From the NCBI GenBank assembly GCA_017461565.1, contig JAFTXQ010000014.1, positions 124,001 through 188,000 on the forward strand: 64,000 bases of DNA. Reading direction: 5' to 3'. This DNA is from Oscillospiraceae bacterium. Lineage in GTDB: Bacteria; Bacillota; Clostridia; Oscillospirales; Ruminococcaceae. Below, piece by piece: positions 3,292 through 11,927 of this stretch. Both the position numbers and the translations under genes were made by a program. The notes under the pieces were generated by a model. That model made no database searches, was not told the DNA's origin, and saw only the letters and a program-made list of their open reading frames with translations. Every line of letters starts with the position of its first letter. Within the stretch, counting starts at the first letter, position 1.

Positions 3292-3399
3292 TGGAACATC
3301 GTTTGTCATGCTGTGCTTTCAGGTCGATTTGTGATGTTTTTGCGCATTTGTTTCTTGTTGCAGTTTTTTTCATACAAAGGCGATATATCATTACGTCAG

Positions 3400-3438
3400 C
3401 GGAGGAGAGCTGCTCCTCCGTAACCGAATGAAAGGAGG
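3400..3438 (+). promoter_or_regulatory. Hairpin and Shine-Dalgarno ahead of the portal gene
   Basis: CGGAGGAG (3400-3407) can pair with CTCCTCCG (3413-3420), an 8-bp stem with a five-base loop. The ribosome site AAAGGAGG (3431-3438) follows. The 3' arm CTCCTCC could instead pair with that ribosome site, so two exclusive folds are possible. A regulatory role is inferred only from complementarity. Confidence 0.4.
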
Positions 3439-3446
3439 TAACGATA

Positions 3447-4805
3447 TTGAGTATCATCAACAGACTGTTCGGCAGGACAGCGCAGTCTAATGTCGCACAG
3501 CTTACGGGATACTATGCGGATGTTCAGCGCTGGGAGGATATCTACAACGGCGGCGGAGACTGGCGCTTCACACGTAAGGGCGGGCTTAATGGCGGCAGCC
3601 GCAGGGTGGCCTCGCTTGGAGCGGCCAAGGCGGTGTGTGCAGAGCTTTCAAGACTGTGCTTCACTGAAGGCTCTTCCGTGTGCAGCGCAGACCCCGAGAG
3701 CGAGAGCTTTATACGCAGTGTGCTTGAGGAGAACCGTTTCACAGAGCGTTTTCCTGCGTTCCTTGAGAGCGTATTTGCGCTTGGAGGCGGCGCTGTAAAG
3801 GTGTATTGGGACAACGGAGTTAAGCTCGATCTTGTGACGGCTGACTGCTTTGTGCCGACAGAGTGGGATGGGCGCCGTATAAACGGTGGCGCATTTGCTT
3901 CACGGATCTTCCGTGACGGCAGGTGCTATACTCTTGCGGAGACTCAGAGTCTTGACGGCGGCTCGCTGACGATAGAAAATCGCCTGTTTGACGAGAACGG
4001 TGCGCCGAAAAAGCTTTCCGAGGTGATTCAGGGGCTGCCCGAAAAAAGCGTTATAAAGGGGCTTGAAAAGCCGCTGTTCGTGTATTTCGGGACAGGTGCT
4101 TCAGGTGCTTCGCAGTGTAGGCTGCTGGGAGCCTCGGTGTTTGCAGGCGCTGTGGACACGCTGAAAAGTCTTGATCTTGTATTTGACAGCCTGAGCCGTG
4201 AATTTGTGCTGGGCAAAAAGAGGATCATAGTTCCCTACTATGCGGTGAGGGGCGAATACGACGAAAACGGAGACATCAGGAGGTATTTTGATGTCAACGA
4301 CGAGGTGTTTCAGGCAATGTCGGTGTCAGACACCGAGGATCTCAAGATCAGTGACAACACCGCAGAGCTGCGTGTTACGGAGCATACCGATGCGCTTTCG
4401 GCGCTGCTGGATATGCTGTGTATGCAGGTGGGGCTTTCTGAGGGAGCGTTGTCCTACAAGGATGGCACGATAAAAACTGCCGCAGAGGTAGTCAGCCGGA
4501 ACAGCCGCACCTATCGCACGCAGGCGTTTTACCGCAGCATGATTTCGGCTGGATTGTCAGAGGTGATGGAGCTTATCTGCATACTCGGAAAGATGGGTGG
4601 CAGGCTCAGAGACAGCGCCTCGGAAAAGGCGACAGTGATGTTTGCGGACGGGGCTGCGGAGGATGACGCATCAAGGATCGACAAGGCACTCAGGCTTTAC
4701 AGCGCAGGTGTGATCTCAAGGACCAGGGCGATATCGCAGATATACGGCGTTTCGCTTGAAGAAGCAGAAGGAATGGAAAGGACGGATTTCTATGGAGAAC
4801 AATAA
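3447..4805 (+). CDS. Phage portal protein (SPP1 gp6-like)
   Basis: This 452-residue protein resembles SPP1-type portal proteins, which form the dodecameric DNA channel at one capsid vertex and dock the terminase and head connectors. The TTG start follows AAAGGAGG by eight bases. N-terminal residues 14-35 (LTGYYADVQRWEDIYNGG), the central beta-rich region and the C-terminal helical part around GLSEGALSYKDGTIKTAAEV are typical of the family. Length is normal. It is the first gene of the phage-derived cassette, and its stop overlaps the next gene by 14 bases. No large or small terminase gene lies upstream, where one would be expected. Confidence 0.85.
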   Translation: MSIINRLFGRTAQSNVAQLTGYYADVQRWEDIYNGGGDWRFTRKGGLNGGSRRVASLGAAKAVCAELSRLCFTEGSSVCSADPESESFIRSVLEENRFTERFPAFLESVFALGGGAVKVYWDNGVKLDLVTADCFVPTEWDGRRINGGAFASRIFRDGRCYTLAETQSLDGGSLTIENRLFDENGAPKKLSEVIQGLPEKSVIKGLEKPLFVYFGTGASGASQCRLLGASVFAGAVDTLKSLDLVFDSLSREFVLGKKRIIVPYYAVRGEYDENGDIRRYFDVNDEVFQAMSVSDTEDLKISDNTAELRVTEHTDALSALLDMLCMQVGLSEGALSYKDGTIKTAAEVVSRNSRTYRTQAFYRSMISAGLSEVMELICILGKMGGRLRDSASEKATVMFADGAAEDDASRIDKALRLYSAGVISRTRAISQIYGVSLEEAEGMERTDFYGEQ

Positions 4806-5181
4806 TGTGACAGAGGTACAGACTCCCGAGACAGCGGTGCAGAATGTAATGCCCGAAGCTGCGCCTTCACTTGCGGAGCAGATAGTTGAGGCTACTGCTC
4901 CCGATGTGGAGTACAAGGCGCTTAAGGAGGCTTTGACAGAAGCAAGGACAAAGCTTGCACTGCTGCTTTGCGGTGTGGCAAAGGAAAAGCTTTCTGACGG
5001 TGCGAAGATCGCACTGGGTCTGGTTGCGGCAGGCATGGAGCCTGAGACCGCAGCGGCAAAGGCGGTAGAGGAATATCCTCATCTTAAGCTCGCTGTGCGT
5101 GAGGTGCCTAAATTTGCGGCGCAGGCAAGCGGAAGCGGTGATGGTTTTGCAGCGATAAAGAGCATTTTCGCTAAGAAGTAA
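4792..5181 (+). CDS. Small scaffold-like phage protein
   Basis: This is a 129-residue Ala/Glu-rich, mostly helical protein. The chosen ATG overlaps the portal stop. The position between portal and major capsid gene and the helical charged composition fit a capsid scaffold or assembly protein, but there is no diagnostic motif. Residues about 45-95 (EYKALKEALTEARTKLALLL onward) could form an amphipathic helix pair. The C-terminus is basic (SIFAKK), as scaffolds often are where they contact the shell. The role is an inference from place and shape. Confidence 0.6.
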   Translation: MENNNVTEVQTPETAVQNVMPEAAPSLAEQIVEATAPDVEYKALKEALTEARTKLALLLCGVAKEKLSDGAKIALGLVAAGMEPETAAAKAVEEYPHLKLAVREVPKFAAQASGSGDGFAAIKSIFAKK

Positions 5182-5348
5182 GCTTCATAGGTAATATGGG
5201 TGGGAGGCGGGTTTGATATAGATGTGGTATCCTGTGCAGTACGGTAGGTAACGGGCTTTCCGAGGTGAACAGCCGTCGACAGACAGGACTATCCGCAGAT
5301 GTCTGAATTATTGCTGAAATACGCTGTTATAACTATATAGTATATTGA

Positions 5349-5386
5349 AAGCCACTTTTGACGCTGTGTCAGAAGTGGCTTTTTGT
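5349..5386 (+). terminator. Intrinsic terminator after the portal/scaffold pair
   Basis: AAGCCACTT and AAGTGGCTT form a stem around GACGCTGTGTC, followed by TTTTTG. It would stop the portal transcript before it reaches the capsid gene. Confidence 0.8.
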
Positions 5387-5397
5387 TGTATGCGTCA

Positions 5398-5426
5398 TTG
5401 ACTTTGTTTGATGGTTCTGTTATAAT
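5398..5426 (+). promoter_or_regulatory. Promoter of the 5469 hypothetical gene
   Basis: TTGACT (5398-5403) and TATAAT (5421-5426) are spaced by 17 bases. Confidence 0.7.
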
Positions 5427-5468
5427 CAACATAGCAAAAATAAGAATTTTACGAGGGAGAGTGAATTT

Positions 5469-5780
5469 ATGAAAAAGGTATTACTCAGCCATGATGGCAA
5501 AATGAAGATGTATCTTGTACCCGATAATGTTGCAGATGACTTAAAAAAATATTGTATGGATTTTGGTTTCGATTGGATATTGAATAACCCTAATGCTCAA
5601 AAACTTCGTGTTGCCACTCCAAGCGGAGAGATTGGTTATATGTTTGGGGCACAGGATTTTATAGACTACTTGAATGACTTTATGTTTCCAAACCAAAAAT
5701 CCACATTGGTTGGTGAAATGGATTTTTATGATTATGAAATTCCAGAGGAATACAAGGATATTCCGTGGTTCAATTTTTAA
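5469..5780 (+). CDS. Hypothetical 103-residue protein
   Basis: This is a small acidic soluble protein with no signal peptide or membrane helix. It starts MKKVLLSHDGKMKMYLVPDN and ends with an acidic, aromatic tail. I do not recognise the family. It is more AT-rich than the phage genes on either side. With its own promoter upstream and a terminator downstream, it is a self-contained unit lodged inside the phage cassette. The ribosome site is GAGGGAG. Confidence 0.75.
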   Translation: MKKVLLSHDGKMKMYLVPDNVADDLKKYCMDFGFDWILNNPNAQKLRVATPSGEIGYMFGAQDFIDYLNDFMFPNQKSTLVGEMDFYDYEIPEEYKDIPWFNF

Positions 5781-5812
5781 GGAACAAATCCTGATTTATC
5801 TATAAGGTAACA

Positions 5813-5853
5813 AGATCCGGAGAAGTGATCATATCTTCTCCGGATCTTTCTTT
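5813..5853. terminator. Bidirectional terminator between the 5469 gene and the methyltransferase
   Basis: AGATCCGGAGAAG (5813-5825) pairs perfectly with CTTCTCCGGATCT (5835-5847). T-rich sequence follows on the plus strand. It sits between convergent genes and can serve both. Confidence 0.85.
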
Positions 5854-5889
5854 ATGACTATTCGCTGTACACTTGCGGCGTGTATAGTG

Positions 5890-6675
5890 TCATTTTCTTT
5901 TCAGCTCTGCCATGGCGGCGTAGTGTACTATATCGAACTCCTCGGGGGCGATGGAGCAGAGCAGTGCTTTGTGCTCCTTTTCCCACTCGGCTATCTCATC
6001 GGGTGCGAGCGAAGCGCCTACGCCTCGGCAGGCTTTTATCCTGCCATGCCAGCTTTCACGGGTGAAGCGGACGTTAAGGCGGTATTCCTCACTGTGGATA
6101 AGCTCAAAGCTGTCGTTGTAACAATCGGGGATAAAGATGGGGCGCATGGTCTCTCCGTGACCGCTCCAGGAGGGATTGTATCTCAGCACCAGCTTTTCGC
6201 TTTCGGAGGCTATCTTGTCCTCGTGGGGGAGCCACGCCATATACAGCACGAGTATACGTCCGTCGGGCTTGAGTATCCTGCGGAGGGTAGGCATTATCTG
6301 CTCGTGCTTAAAGTAGAAGAAGCACTGGCAGGCGGTTATCACATCGAATGACGCATCGGGGAAGTTGATTTCCTCGGCAGACATGGCGTGATACTTTATA
6401 TCCATCCCCTGTGACATCAGTTTTGCCTGTTCTATCTGGTTTTCAGAGATGTCCGTGGCGGTCCATTTTGCGCCGAAACGGTACATGTTTCTCGGAAGCA
6501 CTCCTGTGCCTGTGCCGAGGTCCAGAACTTTCTGCCCCTGTGTGCAAAGCCCTCTTTCAGTTATTCTGCGGTAGAATTCCTCGGGGTAGATGTCACGGTA
6601 CTTCGCATAGTCGGAGGAGGTGCGACCCCAGTCGAATGCCCTGCCTTTATCGATGTTGCGGTCGGTTATGTTCAT
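5890..6675 (-). CDS. Class I SAM-dependent methyltransferase
   Basis: This 261-residue protein has a Methyltransf_11-type fold. Motif I VLDLGTGTGVLPRNM is at about residues 47-61. The acidic loop TDISENQIEQA and the post-motif FDVITACQCFFYFKH are also visible. Small molecules are the usual targets of this group; the substrate is unknown. The start at 6675 is chosen because GAGGT precedes it; the longer frame lacks a ribosome site. It is transcribed against the phage genes from its own consensus promoter. It is unlikely to be part of the phage structural module. Confidence 0.85.
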   Translation of the reverse strand: MNITDRNIDKGRAFDWGRTSSDYAKYRDIYPEEFYRRITERGLCTQGQKVLDLGTGTGVLPRNMYRFGAKWTATDISENQIEQAKLMSQGMDIKYHAMSAEEINFPDASFDVITACQCFFYFKHEQIMPTLRRILKPDGRILVLYMAWLPHEDKIASESEKLVLRYNPSWSGHGETMRPIFIPDCYNDSFELIHSEEYRLNVRFTRESWHGRIKACRGVGASLAPDEIAEWEKEHKALLCSIAPEEFDIVHYAAMAELKRK

Positions 6676-6717
6676 TGATATTACCTCACTTATCGGATGA
6701 TGTCTGCGCTTACTGTG

Positions 6718-6746
6718 ATTATAACCTAAATCGTATTTTATGTCAA
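6718..6746 (-). promoter_or_regulatory. Consensus promoter of the methyltransferase gene
   Basis: On the reverse strand, TTGACA (6746-6741) and TATAAT (6723-6718) are separated by 17 bases. Confidence 0.75.
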
Positions 6747-6881
6747 TATCATCGACAGGAAGCCTTGCAGAAAAATGCAGTAAAGCGGAATTTATAATGT
6801 GCTTGCACGGGAGGGAAACTCCTGTGACGTGCACGAAGAAGCGGGGAGGACGCTCCCTTATTAACGAAAGGAGAAATCAAA

Positions 6882-7772
6882 ATGGCTAATACAATTGAAT
6901 ACGCAAAGCTTTTCCAGAAGGAGCTTGACAAGCAGATCCTGGAGGGTTCTACCTCAGGCTGGATGGAGGAGAACGCATCTCAGGTCATTTACAGCGGCGG
7001 TTCTGAGATCAAGATGCCCAAGATGTCGCTTCAGGGCCTGGGTACATATTCCAGAGATGATGGCTATGTGAACGGTGCTGTGACCTACTCTTTCGAGACA
7101 TTCACACTTACACAGGACAGAGGCAGACGCTTCCGAATCGACGCTATCGACGTTGATGAGAGCGGCTTCGGTCTTGCGGCGGCTAATGTCGCTTCCGAGT
7201 TCCAGCGTACAAAGGTCATCCCCGAGATCGACGCTTATCGTTATTCTAAGCTTGCATCCATGGCAGGCATCACCGAAACATACACTCCCGACAAGTCCAC
7301 TGTTATGAGCGATCTGCTTGATCAGCTCAGCCAGGTGCGTGACATCACAGGCGGCGAGGGAGAGGCTGTTATCATCATGTCCCGTCCCGTGTACGACAAG
7401 CTGATGCTTTCCAGCGAGCTGTCCTACTGCATCGACACTGCGCAGTTCTCTCAGGGCGAGGTGGATTTCACGGTCAAGACCATGAACGGCGTTCCTGTTA
7501 TCCCCGTGCCCTCCGCACGTATGAAGACCGCTTATGTGTTCTCCGCTGACGGTGAGGGTGGTTTCGCTCCCGCAGATGATGCTAAGGATATTAACTGGCT
7601 TATCTGCCCCAAGAGTGCACCTGTCGCAGTTTCCAAGACGGATAATGTGAAGATCATTACTCCCGAGTTGAATCAGTTTGCCGATGCGTGGGATGTGGAT
7701 TACAGAAAGTATCACGATCTTTTCGTTCCCGATAATAAGAAGGCTGCTATCGCCGTTTCAGTGTCTGAATAA
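6882..7772 (+). CDS. Phage major capsid protein (HK97-fold type)
   Basis: This 296-residue protein is the likely shell subunit. The N-terminus (MANTIEYAKLFQKELDKQIL) is the N-arm seen in many Firmicutes phage coat proteins. The middle has the EGEAVIIMSRPVYDKLM and TMNGVPVIPVPSARMKTAYV strands expected of an HK97-fold P-domain. The C-terminus holds the RKYHDLFV signature of this coat subgroup. AAAGGAG precedes the start. No capsid protease is adjacent. Its codon use (TCC, CCC, ATC, GAG, AAG) looks like that of the ribosomal and efp genes in this window and unlike the flanking phage genes, which hints at high expression. Confidence 0.85.
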   Translation: MANTIEYAKLFQKELDKQILEGSTSGWMEENASQVIYSGGSEIKMPKMSLQGLGTYSRDDGYVNGAVTYSFETFTLTQDRGRRFRIDAIDVDESGFGLAAANVASEFQRTKVIPEIDAYRYSKLASMAGITETYTPDKSTVMSDLLDQLSQVRDITGGEGEAVIIMSRPVYDKLMLSSELSYCIDTAQFSQGEVDFTVKTMNGVPVIPVPSARMKTAYVFSADGEGGFAPADDAKDINWLICPKSAPVAVSKTDNVKIITPELNQFADAWDVDYRKYHDLFVPDNKKAAIAVSVSE

Positions 7773-7817
7773 TTGAATTTGGGGGTAAGCGACGGGAGCT
7801 TGTGAAAGGAGAAAGCT

Positions 7818-8186
7818 ATGATCATTACCGCAGAGGAATATCGTGAAATGGGGTTTACTGCCGAAGATGACTCGCTCCTGGAAAGTTGCCTGCAAAGAGC
7901 TGAGTACACACTCATGGGGCTTACCGAGGGCAGAATTAAGTCTGCCCTTGCGGCAGGCGGTATGGCGGCAGATTATGTAAGACAGGCAGCAGGTTTTCAG
8001 ACCAACAAGCTTGTAAAAGAACAGCAGCTTGGCGGCGGAAGCCATTCCGAAAGGGTCGCAATTGGCGATTATTCATATTCTGTCAGTGACAGCGACGCCT
8101 GTGACGCTGTTTATGACATGAGTATGCAGGCGATACGTCTGCTAAAAGCAGCCGGCTGCCTCTTTGGGGGTAGGGAGGTGCTTTAA
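7818..8186 (+). CDS. Phage head-tail connector (adaptor) protein
   Basis: This is a 122-residue helical protein directly after the capsid gene, the usual place of a gp15/gp6-like adaptor that binds under the portal ring. The pattern ITAEEYREMGF then LLESCLQRAEYTLMGLT and the late ALRLL-like helix (SMQAIRLLKAAG) fit that family. A strong AAAGGAG site precedes it. The stop overlaps the next ATG by one base. Confidence 0.7.
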   Translation: MIITAEEYREMGFTAEDDSLLESCLQRAEYTLMGLTEGRIKSALAAGGMAADYVRQAAGFQTNKLVKEQQLGGGSHSERVAIGDYSYSVSDSDACDAVYDMSMQAIRLLKAAGCLFGGREVL

Positions 8187-8509
8187 TGACAATAAGACCT
8201 ATTCCGTCATCGCTTCTTAATGATACGGTCGTGCTGATGATACCTTCCGCAAGTGGATATATTTCACATGACATATCATCGGTCCGTGTCGTCAGGAGCT
8301 CAAAAGTCAGCGAGTATTCTGCTGTCAGGGTACGAGACAGCTCTGTTATAACAGTGTATTACGACTGTACTGTTTCAAAGCCGACAGGCATGGCGTTTTC
8401 GGCAGGTATGCTTATCGTATTTGACGGCGTAAGGTATGAGCTGCTCTCGGCTGAAGAATTTAAAGCGGAAGCACCGCACCATATCAGATTGACGGCAAAG
8501 AAAGTATAA
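8186..8509 (+). CDS. Putative minor capsid / head-closure protein
   Basis: This is a 107-residue beta-rich protein (RPIPSSLLNDTVVLMIPSAS at the start, LIVFDGVRYELLSAEEF later). Its order after the adaptor, its size and the beta-barrel character fit the putative minor capsid (stopper-like) proteins of Firmicutes siphophages. It is translationally coupled to the adaptor. The exact family is not certain. Confidence 0.65.
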   Translation: MTIRPIPSSLLNDTVVLMIPSASGYISHDISSVRVVRSSKVSEYSAVRVRDSSVITVYYDCTVSKPTGMAFSAGMLIVFDGVRYELLSAEEFKAEAPHHIRLTAKKV

Positions 8510-8566
8510 CGGCAGTACCGCCGTGCGGCTGAGCTGCACGGCGGTGTTTTGCGGAAAGGAGCTATC

Positions 8567-8716
8567 ATGACACAAAAAAAGTTGGCGAGCACAGCTGATA
8601 ATAAAAAGGCTTTGTCGGACAAACAGGATGGCTATCGTCTTGCAAAGCTGCTTAGGTCAGGTAACAGGGAGCTTATGCGTCAGCTCAACTCCAAAAAGAC
8701 CAGGCGTGATCGCTGA
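8567..8716 (+). CDS. Small basic protein in the phage cassette (49 residues)
   Basis: An ATG follows GAAAGGAG by six bases and opens a 49-codon frame (MTQKKLASTADNKKALSDKQ onward, ending TRRDR). It is strongly basic. Its stop overlaps the ribosome site of the next gene, as in a compact operon. I do not recognise a family. The tight spacing and ribosome sites at both ends support a real gene. Confidence 0.7.
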   Translation: MTQKKLASTADNKKALSDKQDGYRLAKLLRSGNRELMRQLNSKKTRRDR

Positions 8717-8726
8717 GGAGGTTTGA

Positions 8727-9071
8727 ATGACTATATACATCAATGGCATGGCGTTTGATAAAGTGACGTCTTTATCTGTCGACAGGGAGACACGCCGTAC
8801 CGAAATAAACTACAACACGCAGGGTGACATGCTTATCGACCTTGTGAACAGAAAATACAGACTTACTGTGACCTTCGGACTACTTACAGATGGCGAGCTT
8901 AAAGCGCTCCGTCAGCTTTCGCAGGAGATCTTTGTAACAGTAAGATTCCCCGCTCCCGAGGGCGAGACCGAGGCGCAGTTCCACATTTCGAAGGAGCCGG
9001 CTCCTGTTGTGACAGAGGTCAACCGGGTGGTCCTTTACAGCGGGGTGGAGCTGATTATGCAGCAGAAATGA
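8727..9071 (+). CDS. Phage tail-associated protein, DUF6711-like
   Basis: This is a 114-residue beta-rich protein. It opens MTIYINGMAFDKVTSLSVDR and has NTQGDMLIDLVNRKYRLTVT, which resembles the small siphophage structural proteins named DUF6711. Such proteins are found in tail modules. It is followed at once by the tail-hub gene; a tape-measure gene would normally lie nearby and is absent. GAGGAGG precedes the start. Confidence 0.55.
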   Translation: MTIYINGMAFDKVTSLSVDRETRRTEINYNTQGDMLIDLVNRKYRLTVTFGLLTDGELKALRQLSQEIFVTVRFPAPEGETEAQFHISKEPAPVVTEVNRVVLYSGVELIMQQK

Positions 9072-9081
9072 GGTGGAAGTT

Positions 9082-10581
9082 TTGGTTGCAGTATCCGATA
9101 ATTTCAAAAAACTGGCGCTGAGTGCAGGGCGCAGGGTGTATTGTCGTATCATAGCTGATGGAGAGGAGTTCCTTGACGACAGGCTGCTTGAATTTGATTT
9201 CGATGATGTGACGCATCCCGATTGGTTTACTGTCGGTACAGCCTGTGCGAATCGTTTTCATTTTTCTGCCGAGTTCAATGGCGTGCTTTCGGTGAATGGT
9301 CGTGTAATGCCTTATATCAGCTTTGACGGTACAGAATGGTGTCCGCTGGGTGTTTTCTACATATCACGGCGCTATCAGCGCAGAGGCATAATAAGCGTCA
9401 CCTGTTATGACAGGATGTATTCGCTTGATATGGAGCTTAAGTATAAGGGAGATTTTCCTATAAGCTCTGATAAGCTTCTTGGAGATATCTGTGCAGAACA
9501 TGGGATAGAGCTTTCGGGTGCAGGAATGGCATTTGAAATACAGCAGCTTCCCGAAGTATGCACCGTACGTGATATGATAGGCTATATTGCAGGACTTAAT
9601 CGTGCCTGTGCAAAATTTGACAGGTATGGCAGGCTTGTGATGAAGCAGTGCTCGGCACCCTCGGGAGGCGATATGCTGTCGCATCTCAACTGCATCGATA
9701 TACGCCGAAACATGGAAAGCTCTGTTGTCACCTGCATAAAAGCGGAGACGGAAACAGAATCGCTGGTATCGGGCGACGGGGCAGAGATATCCACCATAGA
9801 GATGTACAATCCCTTTATGACGCAGGAGCGTCTTGACAGTATGTGCGCCGCACTTAAAGGCTTTGAGTTCTACGGCGCAGATATCGAGATGCAGGGGATA
9901 CCGTTTCTTGAGTCGGGTGAGAGCATAATGTTGCGTGACCGTGACGAGGTATATCCCATCGTTATAAGCGAGATAGAATACATCTACGACGGCGGTCTGA
10001 CTGCCATGCTGTATTCCAGAAACAAGGCCAATATCGACGCAATTGTACACGAGGACGATCTTGAGGAGAGCTTGAAAAAGCTTGAAGCGAAGCTTATTGC
10101 CGTACCGATCGTGCAGACTAACGCTGAGGATATCGACATCAATGCACAAGAGCTGGTGATAGCGGATATTTCATTCAAAGCGGGAAGATACGCATTTGCG
10201 CAGCTTGATCTTAATGCAGTGGTTTCGGCAAAGCAGACTGCGGCACTGGAGCTTTCGGTAAACATAAATGGCAAGGACAGCGGACGGCGCATTCTGCATT
10301 CCCATTCCGGTGCAGGCGATGAGCTTCTGCTGCTTCATCATACCGAAGTGCAGCTTCCCGTGGGCGATAACAGGATATATGTCACGGCAAAGGCTGTATC
10401 GGGTACGGCGGTGATCTCTGCCGAAGCCATGCAGACGGCGCTTGTGATACACGGCGGACAGGGAACAGTCGCAGGCGGCGTGAGAGACAAGCTTTCGCTT
10501 TATGAGGAGCTTCCGTTTATCAGCGCCGAAAGATATGTCGCAGGGCTTGCGGACATCACGGCTGTACCTGTGACCGTTTAA
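9082..10581 (+). CDS. Phage tail hub / tail-associated protein
   Basis: This 499-residue protein resembles the distal tail hub and prophage endopeptidase-tail proteins of siphophages. The N-terminal part is beta-rich (FDDVTHPDWFTVGTACANRF, then PLGVFYISRRYQRRGIISVT, then CYDRMYSLD). The middle has the gp27-like hub pattern (SDKLLGDICAEHGIEL, YIAGLNRACAKFDRYGRL). The C-terminal ~150 residues look like a separate beta-sandwich. I chose TTG 9082, six bases after GAGGTG; a GTG at 9073 in frame lies inside that site. No catalytic endopeptidase motif is obvious. Confidence 0.65.
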   Translation: MVAVSDNFKKLALSAGRRVYCRIIADGEEFLDDRLLEFDFDDVTHPDWFTVGTACANRFHFSAEFNGVLSVNGRVMPYISFDGTEWCPLGVFYISRRYQRRGIISVTCYDRMYSLDMELKYKGDFPISSDKLLGDICAEHGIELSGAGMAFEIQQLPEVCTVRDMIGYIAGLNRACAKFDRYGRLVMKQCSAPSGGDMLSHLNCIDIRRNMESSVVTCIKAETETESLVSGDGAEISTIEMYNPFMTQERLDSMCAALKGFEFYGADIEMQGIPFLESGESIMLRDRDEVYPIVISEIEYIYDGGLTAMLYSRNKANIDAIVHEDDLEESLKKLEAKLIAVPIVQTNAEDIDINAQELVIADISFKAGRYAFAQLDLNAVVSAKQTAALELSVNINGKDSGRRILHSHSGAGDELLLLHHTEVQLPVGDNRIYVTAKAVSGTAVISAEAMQTALVIHGGQGTVAGGVRDKLSLYEELPFISAERYVAGLADITAVPVTV

Positions 10582-10598
10582 GTGAAAGGAGAGATCAG

Positions 10599-11927
10599 AT
10601 GAAAGGAAAAGCTACCATCATTCTCGCTGACGCTAAAACAGGCGAGGTGATAAGCAGAACAGAGGAGCACAATCTTGTCACAAATGCACTGAACAATATT
10701 TTTGCTCCGCCGCATTATGCCATGCTTCATAGCTTTAAGTATTCGTCGCTGTTTGGCGGCGGACTTCCGCTGTGGAAGGACCTTGCGGCAGGTATAATAC
10801 TTCTCGGCAATACTGTTGAAGAGGATGCGGACAACATCCTGCTTGGAAGCGATACTATACCGGTAGGTACTGCAGGCGGCGAATATGACGGAGACAATAT
10901 ATGGCGTGGTACGCTTAATCTCAACGAGAGCTACCAGACCGAGAATGGCTATCATTTTACATGGGATTTCGGAACGGATAAGTGCAACGGCACGATAAAG
11001 TGTGTAGCGCTTACAAGTAAGGAGTTCGGAAACGCAGGCTTTCATTCGGGAACAGAAACGGATGGCAGCTTATTGGTCCATCCTATGTACATCGGGCATA
11101 CGGACGTTGACCCTGATATCTTATTTGAGTACGGTACGGGTCAGTATCTGGGAACCTTTGAAAGCGGAATACACACCTTTGCGGAGCTTGACGAGAACAG
11201 CAACATCGTATTCAGGCGATATCGAAGCGTTGATCCCGATGCGCTGAAAATAAACGATGTCACGGGACTTGAATCGTTATCCGAGCCGATATCCGTGACG
11301 ACGGTGACACCAAGCGTGACGGTGAAATATGAGGAGCGCTTCTTTGTTGATCCGAAAAAACGACTTGTTTACTATTTTGGTGACAGTGTGCAGCTGAGCA
11401 GCACTCAGATGCAGATATGCTGGACGGCGATAAGCCTTGATACCTTTACCGTGATGGAAACAAAAACAGTCATCATCCCGAAGAACTGCACGAACCAGTG
11501 TATAGGCGCCGTATGGGACGGATATCTGTATTATCTGACATCCGATGGCGTGAGCAAGTTTACTCTTGACGGTGAGCTGATAAAGGATTACGAAGCGCCT
11601 TTTGAGCAGTACACGTTACTGTTTGCTATGGGTGACTGCCTTATGGCTCAGGCTGCCGGTGGAGATATATATTGCTTCTCATGGGGCGAAGAGAGCTGTC
11701 TGGTGACATACAGAAAATACCTTTTCCCTGCGTACAATGTTGATGCAAAGGCGCCGTATATATCTATATGCCGCCGAAGATATCACTTTGCGGGTGATGC
11801 TTCGATAACAGTGAAGCCTTCGCTTATGATGGCGGGCTGTTATATGGCGACGATAAACAACCTTTCGAAGCCAATAGAAAAGACCTCGGCACACACGCTG
11901 AAGATATCCTATGACATCACCAACTGA
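10599..11927 (+). CDS. Putative phage tail fibre / receptor-binding protein
   Basis: This is a 442-residue protein. It opens with MKGKATIILADAKTGEVISR and EEHNLVTNALNNIF, an N-terminus I associate with phage tail or baseplate fibres of gut Firmicutes. The middle and C-terminus have repeated WDGYLYYLTSDGVSKFTLDG and GGDIYCFSWGEE segments that suggest a beta-propeller-like domain, possibly the receptor-binding part. GAAAGGAG precedes the start. It is the last gene of the cassette and meets the ackA terminator. Confidence 0.6.
   Translation: MKGKATIILADAKTGEVISRTEEHNLVTNALNNIFAPPHYAMLHSFKYSSLFGGGLPLWKDLAAGIILLGNTVEEDADNILLGSDTIPVGTAGGEYDGDNIWRGTLNLNESYQTENGYHFTWDFGTDKCNGTIKCVALTSKEFGNAGFHSGTETDGSLLVHPMYIGHTDVDPDILFEYGTGQYLGTFESGIHTFAELDENSNIVFRRYRSVDPDALKINDVTGLESLSEPISVTTVTPSVTVKYEERFFVDPKKRLVYYFGDSVQLSSTQMQICWTAISLDTFTVMETKTVIIPKNCTNQCIGAVWDGYLYYLTSDGVSKFTLDGELIKDYEAPFEQYTLLFAMGDCLMAQAAGGDIYCFSWGEESCLVTYRKYLFPAYNVDAKAPYISICRRRYHFAGDASITVKPSLMMAGCYMATINNLSKPIEKTSAHTLKISYDITN

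Follow-up and report, generated by a model that had tools for sequence, protein, structure and literature searches.

A set of intact phage structural genes with no packaging, tail-tube or lysis genes beside it raises the question of whether it is the debris of a prophage or a device that its host has kept. Such a cassette lies at positions 3447–11927 of a 64,000-nt stretch of DNA (the window) from an uncultured gut Oscillospiraceae genus, whose nearest named records are gut metagenome-assembled genomes (MAGs) filed under Oscillospiraceae or Clostridia. The first-pass annotation, made from the window's letters, had offered a domesticated particle resembling a gene transfer agent (GTA), a satellite-like particle or a prophage remnant, and had proposed profile searches of each protein and a comparison of gene order and of the ratio of nonsynonymous to synonymous divergence (dN/dS) across relatives. 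In phage-family profile searches the predicted structural genes were confirmed, in intact frames and in the order portal, scaffold, capsid, two connectors, tip protein, hub and fibre, and a comparison within a set of 43 genomes of the genus, the window's own included, revealed a constant gene order and purifying selection. Most of the genus has probably retained a dispersed GTA, of which the cassette would form the capsid and tail-tip operons.

When the major capsid protein (MCP) was used as a query, matches were obtained in 40 of the 43 genus genomes, with the cassette type (68–90% identity) in 38; the matches in G030 and G032, at 52% identity, were prophage-type in appearance. No match to this query was found in three of the 43 (G008, G014 and G023), of which G023 has a cassette-type portal. 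An apparent break in that portal, considered as decay, consisted of runs of N. The order portal-scaffold-MCP-adaptors-tip-hub(-fibre) was common to the 29 genus loci compared, the exception being G026, where portal and scaffold are missing from the locus. Chromosomal neighbours were shared by 19–20 of the 29 loci (plsC and ispH-like on one side, phoH-like on the other) and differ from the flanks of the window cassette. Names of chromosomal neighbours (plsC, ispH, cmk, phoH, ybeY, sigF, spoIIA, apgM, lepA, mutL) and labels such as glycosyltransferase or replication-like are readings of the sequence unless a family is cited. Protein lengths over the 29 genomes were uniform for the portal (448–462 amino acids, aa), MCP (294–299 aa) and tip (113–120 aa) and variable for the hub (341–508 aa); scaffold starts were uncertain, and the cassette fibre was located in 18. 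The earlier claim of no stop-codon decay held for the window, and the sole internal stop in the 29 genomes was in the hub of G020.

Estimates of dN/dS (NG86) for the 14 closest pairs, which share genomes and hence are not independent, were 0.03–0.12 for MCP, 0.05–0.17 for the portal and 0.10–0.32 for the hub; the fibre, compared in eight pairs, had the highest values of the genes compared (0.16–0.34). The dS of MCP and portal was similar to that of neighbouring genes. The cassette is conserved, vertically inherited and under purifying selection, and is not decaying.

Packaging genes were found at an unlinked locus in most of the genus. The reference for this search was L056, a single contiguous cluster in another genus of the same family, which encodes TerS, TerL, portal, scaffold, MCP, two adaptors, two minor head proteins, tail tube, two further proteins (one gp15-like), a 244-aa tape measure, tip protein, hub and fibre. 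Its TerL matched 41 of the 43 genus genomes, with the GTA type (54% or more) in 36, two of these in contig-end pieces and one with an internal TGA; the other five had prophage-like or remote copies only, as read from the table of matches. Loss of the terminase throughout the genus was ruled out by the 36 GTA-type copies. TerS preceded TerL in all 20 loci fetched. Searches for the other genes of the L056 cluster, the fibre aside, found none in 20 TerS-TerL stretches of up to 20 kb, and terminase and capsid loci were on different contigs or, in G034, 71 kb apart. The claim that packaging and lysis genes are missing was thus correct locally, but packaging genes are present unlinked in relatives and lysis genes unlinked in the window's own genome. 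A split terminase had been expected to mark an ordinary remnant or prophage; this does not hold here, as most of the genus has these loci and a single promoter type is common to them. In G026, TerS-TerL stand on the same strand directly after spoIIAA-spoIIAB-sigF-like genes (L091 4466–6195), neighbours that could tie packaging in that genome to sporulation control.

The promoter type is a direct repeat, TGCAGT-N4-TGCAGT, seen upstream of the portal and of terS. The exact motif occurred at 103 sites in 37 of the 43 genus genomes, compared with one site for the reversed control. A family sample gave matches in 10 of 148 genomes, two of them from the genus, which leaves eight sites in 145 other-genus genomes; the reversed pattern had one site in the 148 sampled. 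An exact copy was located within 450 bp upstream of 24 of the 33 located portals, and the MCP operons of G026 and G037, where the portal is on another contig, each have their own. With two or fewer mismatches allowed, the motif was present upstream of 24 of 29 portals and 10 of 18 terS genes, and in none of 133 upstreams of eight control genes. Its layout and spacing are reminiscent of a lambda CII site. Among 40 further motif loci that were read, some of which may be chance, six precede operons for a small membrane protein, holin and endolysin and four precede fibre-like proteins, one of which was run against families (phrog_4492). Three of the genomes with a motif-preceded fibre-like gene (G029, G013 and G019, not G021) are ones in which the cassette fibre was not found.

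Within the window, the top motif match (6766–6781, one mismatch) was 100 bp before MCP, in a probable capsid-operon promoter at 6765–6798 on the forward strand (TTGCAGAAAAATGCAGT, 11 bp, TATAAT); one other site, with two mismatches, was at ~23886, and the reversed window gave none at two or fewer mismatches. A probable portal-operon promoter (3358–3391, forward strand) consists of TTGCAGTTTTTTTCATAC and then a -10-like ATATATCAT, with only one motif half intact. It is followed by an inverted repeat in the 5' untranslated region (3400–3420, forward strand; CGGAGGAG-AGCTG-CTCCTCCG, read and folded), and this stem recurs at the same place in a number of genus genomes with its letters changed.

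Lysis genes form a third locus. In the genus these loci encode an amidase/endolysin (phrog_15001, E 6e-45) or GH25 protein and a weakly matched holin (phrog_297, E 6e-4), the holin being present in 35 of 43 genomes with some copies in prophages. The exact motif was present at 7 of 26 holin loci read, six of them found through the motif itself, and 9 of 20 loci reached via the holin had it at two or fewer mismatches within 1.1 kb. The window's own genome has small membrane protein, holin and GH25 genes standing alone between lepA- and mutL-like genes.

The first-pass annotation was right that the tail tube is missing. The L056 tube, which is 50–88% identical in other contiguous clusters, was convincingly matched in only 3 of 43 genus genomes, which indicates that the tube is gone from the genus; on the same result, the idea of a tail shaft at another genus locus was rejected. 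The tube contig of G012, one of the three, also carries a TerL of 37% identity, and this tube probably belongs to a phage. The tape measure had likewise been reported missing, and no long one lies beside the cassette, but an overlooked 49-aa open reading frame (ORF) at 8567–8716 (forward strand) resembles its C-terminus. Sixteen such ORFs, lying between adaptor 2 and tip, were made into a profile, which was searched against the ORFs of L031–L070 and the window, plus reversed controls. The profile matched residues 218–241 of the 244-aa L056 tape measure (E 5e-5; next non-member 0.42) and hit three of seven tape measures; the hhalign result was weaker (probability 23%, E 9e-4). The ORFs in the profile were picked with a loose pattern of the tape-measure end, and an eight-member cluster had emerged earlier without that pattern. 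Of 33 named loci, among them L141 from another genus, 15 yielded such small ORFs, as did the window. The gap was too short for such an ORF in 12 loci, so the remnant is not needed everywhere. The tape measure has probably been reduced to its C-terminal end in the form of this ORF.

The tip protein (8727–9071, forward strand; phrog_1194, E 3e-12) was modelled with AlphaFold2 (AF2) as a beta sandwich with one helix (pLDDT 85). Its best Foldseek matches were to chains from phage tails, connectors and baseplates, along with two from GTA-particle entries (6TBA, 6TOA), at E 1.4e-3 and weaker with none at 0.001 or less, and the protein is probably of the tail-tube superfold. The fibre, a probable receptor-binding protein (10599–11927, forward strand; phrog_19291, E 7e-33), was modelled as an N-terminal domain and a beta-propeller-like part (AF2 pLDDT 86); many of its top Foldseek matches were beta-propeller proteins, with low TM-scores.

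A dispersed short-tailed GTA is the reading we favour because complementary virion and lysis parts stand at unlinked loci, of which many have a promoter of one type, and selection maintains the head genes across most of the genus. As in a GTA, phage-type head and tail genes are kept by the host without any recognised adjoining integrase or replication genes, and are inherited vertically under purifying selection across the lineage. An intact prophage would have integrase, replication and complete morphogenesis genes in one element, and a capsid-carrying satellite would be a mobile island with an integrase and its own terminase; the cassette has neither form. Under this reading the TGCAGT-N4-TGCAGT element would let an activator turn on several operons that are not linked. 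A small head would be assembled from portal, scaffold and capsid protein, and TerS-TerL from their separate locus would load it with host DNA. With the tail tube and, probably, nearly all of the tape measure discarded, the connectors would dock straight onto the tube-fold tip protein, hub and fibre to give a short-tailed particle, and holin and endolysin from the third locus would burst the producer cell. This suggests that the bacteria may use the particle to pass pieces of their own DNA to one another. A more specific form of the reading is held with less assurance, though we lean towards it: a near genus-wide GTA split into three or more operons, many with their own copy of the activator site, and with the tape measure cut to a 49-residue anchor. 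These operons would be packaging, portal-capsid-tip, lysis and, in some genomes, a separate fibre, with portal-scaffold apart from the capsid in G026 and G037.

Several observations weigh against a dispersed GTA, beginning with packaging. Neither TerS nor a GTA-type TerL was found in the window's genome, which is 92.8% complete; the only TerL seen was a prophage copy of 47–49% identity, and the sigF-apgM-like junction at which TerS-TerL stand in G026 is clean in the window's genome. Because of the incompleteness of the assembly, loss of TerS-TerL from this genome is not proven. G002 (97% complete) has the cassette but no TerL match, and the packaging of host DNA by the particles is itself inferred. 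Together with the retention of tail-tip genes and a fast-evolving fibre, the lack of TerS-TerL in the window's genome and of TerL in G002 would suit a domesticated particle that has lost DNA packaging, in the window's lineage if not more widely, and acts as a capsid-plus-tip killing or delivery device, as PBSX is described as doing for Bacillus subtilis (PMC12946183). This is the best-placed rival and is still unlikely, since most of the genus has retained portal and TerL, with the promoter element common to both, and a tip without tube or sheath would presumably be an odd killing device.

A second set of adverse observations concerns the promoter element. The exact motif was present at only 13 of 34 TerL loci (within 800 bp), 11 of the 20 loci reached via the holin lacked it at two mismatches, the window's genome among them, and that genome has no exact site. 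Its portal and holin-endolysin upstreams share a 15-bp core, CAGTNTTTTTCATAC, but this pattern was built from those two sites, noticed before the search, so that both match by construction. No further perfect copy was found in the 2.19-Mb genome; a third copy, with one mismatch, lies in a gene read as an ATPase subunit and was taken as chance (the reversed control gave two at one or fewer mismatches). The motif also precedes replication-like, glycosyltransferase-like and other genes, so the activator would not be exclusive to the particle. At least 13 of the 40 further loci have it before replication-protein-like genes that we read as phage- or integrative and conjugative element (ICE)-like (L279, L283, L290, L291, L294–L296, L298, L299, L302, L306, L310, L314), with an HTH_36 domain in one of two such proteins run, and three genomes have it before a glycosyltransferase-like gene (L292, L300, L308). 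The activator may be shared with mobile elements. These replication-like loci would fit an explanation in which the motif is a common phage/ICE-type activator site and the loci are mere passengers rather than one machine. We consider this very improbable, as the products of these loci complement one another as a single virion and lysis set and the motif is rare in the 145 other-genus genomes.

The pattern of inheritance also has departures. G014 (98% complete) lacks both the cassette MCP and a GTA-type TerL. The dS of hub and fibre exceeded that of MCP and neighbours in several pairs, so these two genes may be exchanged between genomes. In G037 an integrated element interrupts the MCP gene at codon ~237, and the two ends of the insertion share a 16-bp core; a junction identical in sequence and place is present in G028, and contigs of G003 also stop there. 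The core is unoccupied in the window MCP (7591–7606), and the gene is a mobile-element target in 2 of 43 genomes (L227 2783, L228 8720, L231 37).

An ordinary prophage remnant heading to decay would account for the lack of a tail tube, full tape measure, integrase and replication genes but is hardly credible given cassette-type MCP in 38 of 43 genomes, constant gene order and promoters shared by unlinked loci, and ORF integrity (one internal stop in 29 genomes) and low dN/dS rule out decay. Equally hard to credit is a phage satellite or a capsid decoy acting on infecting siphophages with related capsids: prophage-like loci of the same genus do carry MCPs of ~49–62% identity, but no integrase or satellite regulator was recognised at the cassette, the pattern is vertical and TerS-TerL and lysis loci share the promoter type, so the satellite-like alternative in the first-pass annotation was not supported.

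Among known systems the nearest in kind to the proposed dispersed GTA is FpGTA of Faecalibacterium prausnitzii, although its arrangement differs. FpGTA is reported by its authors as the first GTA in the human gut microbiome and comprises two operons, with particles of ~40 nm containing 8.4–8.9 kb of host DNA (Borodovich et al. 2026, PMC12946183). The likeness, which is one of description rather than sequence, lies in a gut Clostridia host, genes for TerS, TerL, portal, scaffold and capsid, no replication genes, further parts including holin and endolysin at a second locus and, as described there, a most likely podovirus-like form (PMC12946183). According to the same description, FpGTA has TerS-TerL with the head genes in operon I and baseplate, fibre and lysis in operon II, whereas in the window genus TerS-TerL are split off, hub and fibre stand with the head and lysis is a third locus; with the terminase unlinked, there is no single operon of TerS-TerL-portal-scaffold-capsid. 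A ~40-nm particle without a visible tail, as FpGTA is described, fits the tube loss and shortened tape measure here, judged from the genes. The terms 'promoter' and 'tape measure' do not occur in the main text of that paper. GTA-like packaging is described there for Ruminococcus callidus, with 4.6-kb fragments, and for other taxa as well; R. callidus is not named in the paper's list of MAGs searched for GTA operons (PMC12946183). No GTA of the window genus was described in the titles or abstracts found by literature search.

The contiguous clusters of other lineages share homologous TerS, TerL, portal, MCP, tip and hub and differ in being one cluster with the terminase in front. Both terminase and tail tube are retained in L056, L152, L160, L162–L164 and L168; in L154 and L165 the tube is present on contigs that start near MCP, and L141/G169 has the terminase in front and no tube. 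Upstream of TerS in L056, L150, L160, L163 and L168, a looser TTGCA/TTTCA direct repeat ~10 bp apart and then a -10-like box were seen by eye, so the control element may predate scattering; a stricter scan of the contiguous clusters gave a site only in L168 (two mismatches). No integrase or replication gene was seen by eye beside L163, L160 or L141. An integrase-like ORF (389–1402), also read by eye, lies ~5 kb upstream of the L152 cluster, so some contiguous clusters may be more phage-like. A viral-contig scan gave six relatives, five at 66–70% identity, and the three inspected resembled contiguous clusters. Recombinase-like ORFs were seen by eye at the hub end of two viral-contig clusters (L367 13895–15718, L369 10424–12070).

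RcGTA, of Rhodobacter and relatives, is likewise a vertically inherited set of structural and packaging genes kept by the host, and the weak fold matches of the tip protein include two chains of GTA-particle entries. It has kept a siphovirus-type tail, with its genes in one main cluster, whereas the window genus has lost the tail shaft and has its genes dispersed over several loci. Siphophages with phrog_422 capsids have the same portal and capsid families and are full phages with tails, replication and lysogeny genes. The best-listed eight GenBank phage MCPs were 43–47% identical to the window MCP, and all 80 matches listed were below 60%. The window's own genome also holds a fuller siphophage-like prophage (L051, G000:C9) with a related MCP (61–62%) and its own terminase.

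If the more specific form of the dispersed-GTA reading is correct, a phage would have been converted stepwise, from contiguous to tailless to scattered, into a host regulon. The tube-bearing, tubeless and scattered forms offer a way to test how a prophage turns into host-run DNA export. GTAs have been recorded from few lineages, and this would be a second, differently organised gut system. Its recognisable promoter signature would serve as a genomic search key for further such systems, and the 49-aa tape-measure remnant as a natural minimal case for the setting of tail length and for tip assembly.

The genes of the cassette are real, but besides containing the overlooked 49-aa ORF it is broken at 5469–6675 by two unrelated genes, a 103-aa ORF (5469–5780, forward strand) without a phage family or Pfam match and a reverse-strand S-adenosylmethionine (SAM)-dependent methyltransferase (5890–6675; PF08241, E 9e-20), neither of which had a match in the 39 loci searched (tblastn for the 103-aa ORF). 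The methyltransferase is probably not part of the particle. The remaining genes, all on the forward strand, are an SPP1 gp6-like portal (3447–4805; phrog_533, E 8e-103; PF05133), head scaffolding protein (4792–5181; phrog_2303, weak at E 0.0035, with the same position in relatives), MCP (6882–7772; phrog_422, E 2e-100), head-tail adaptor 1 (7818–8186; phrog_541, E 3e-9), the Minor_capsid_1-like head-tail adaptor 2 (8186–8509; phrog_793, weak at E 0.0013, and PF10665 below its cut-off) and tail hub (9073–10581; phrog_6616, E 5e-27), which starts at GTG 9073 or TTG 9082. Strong ribosome sites had been described at all genes; ribosome-site-like sequence was observed upstream of most cassette starts. 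No terminase, tail tube, long tape measure, integrase or replication gene was recognised adjoining the cassette, from Pfam searches of three neighbours and inspection by eye of the remaining window ORF lists, which bears out the reported lack of integrase and replication genes. The three neighbours were a DUF3825 protein, one protein without a significant family and acetate kinase. The gene frequently downstream of the cassette (c12) encodes an alpha/beta hydrolase-like protein.

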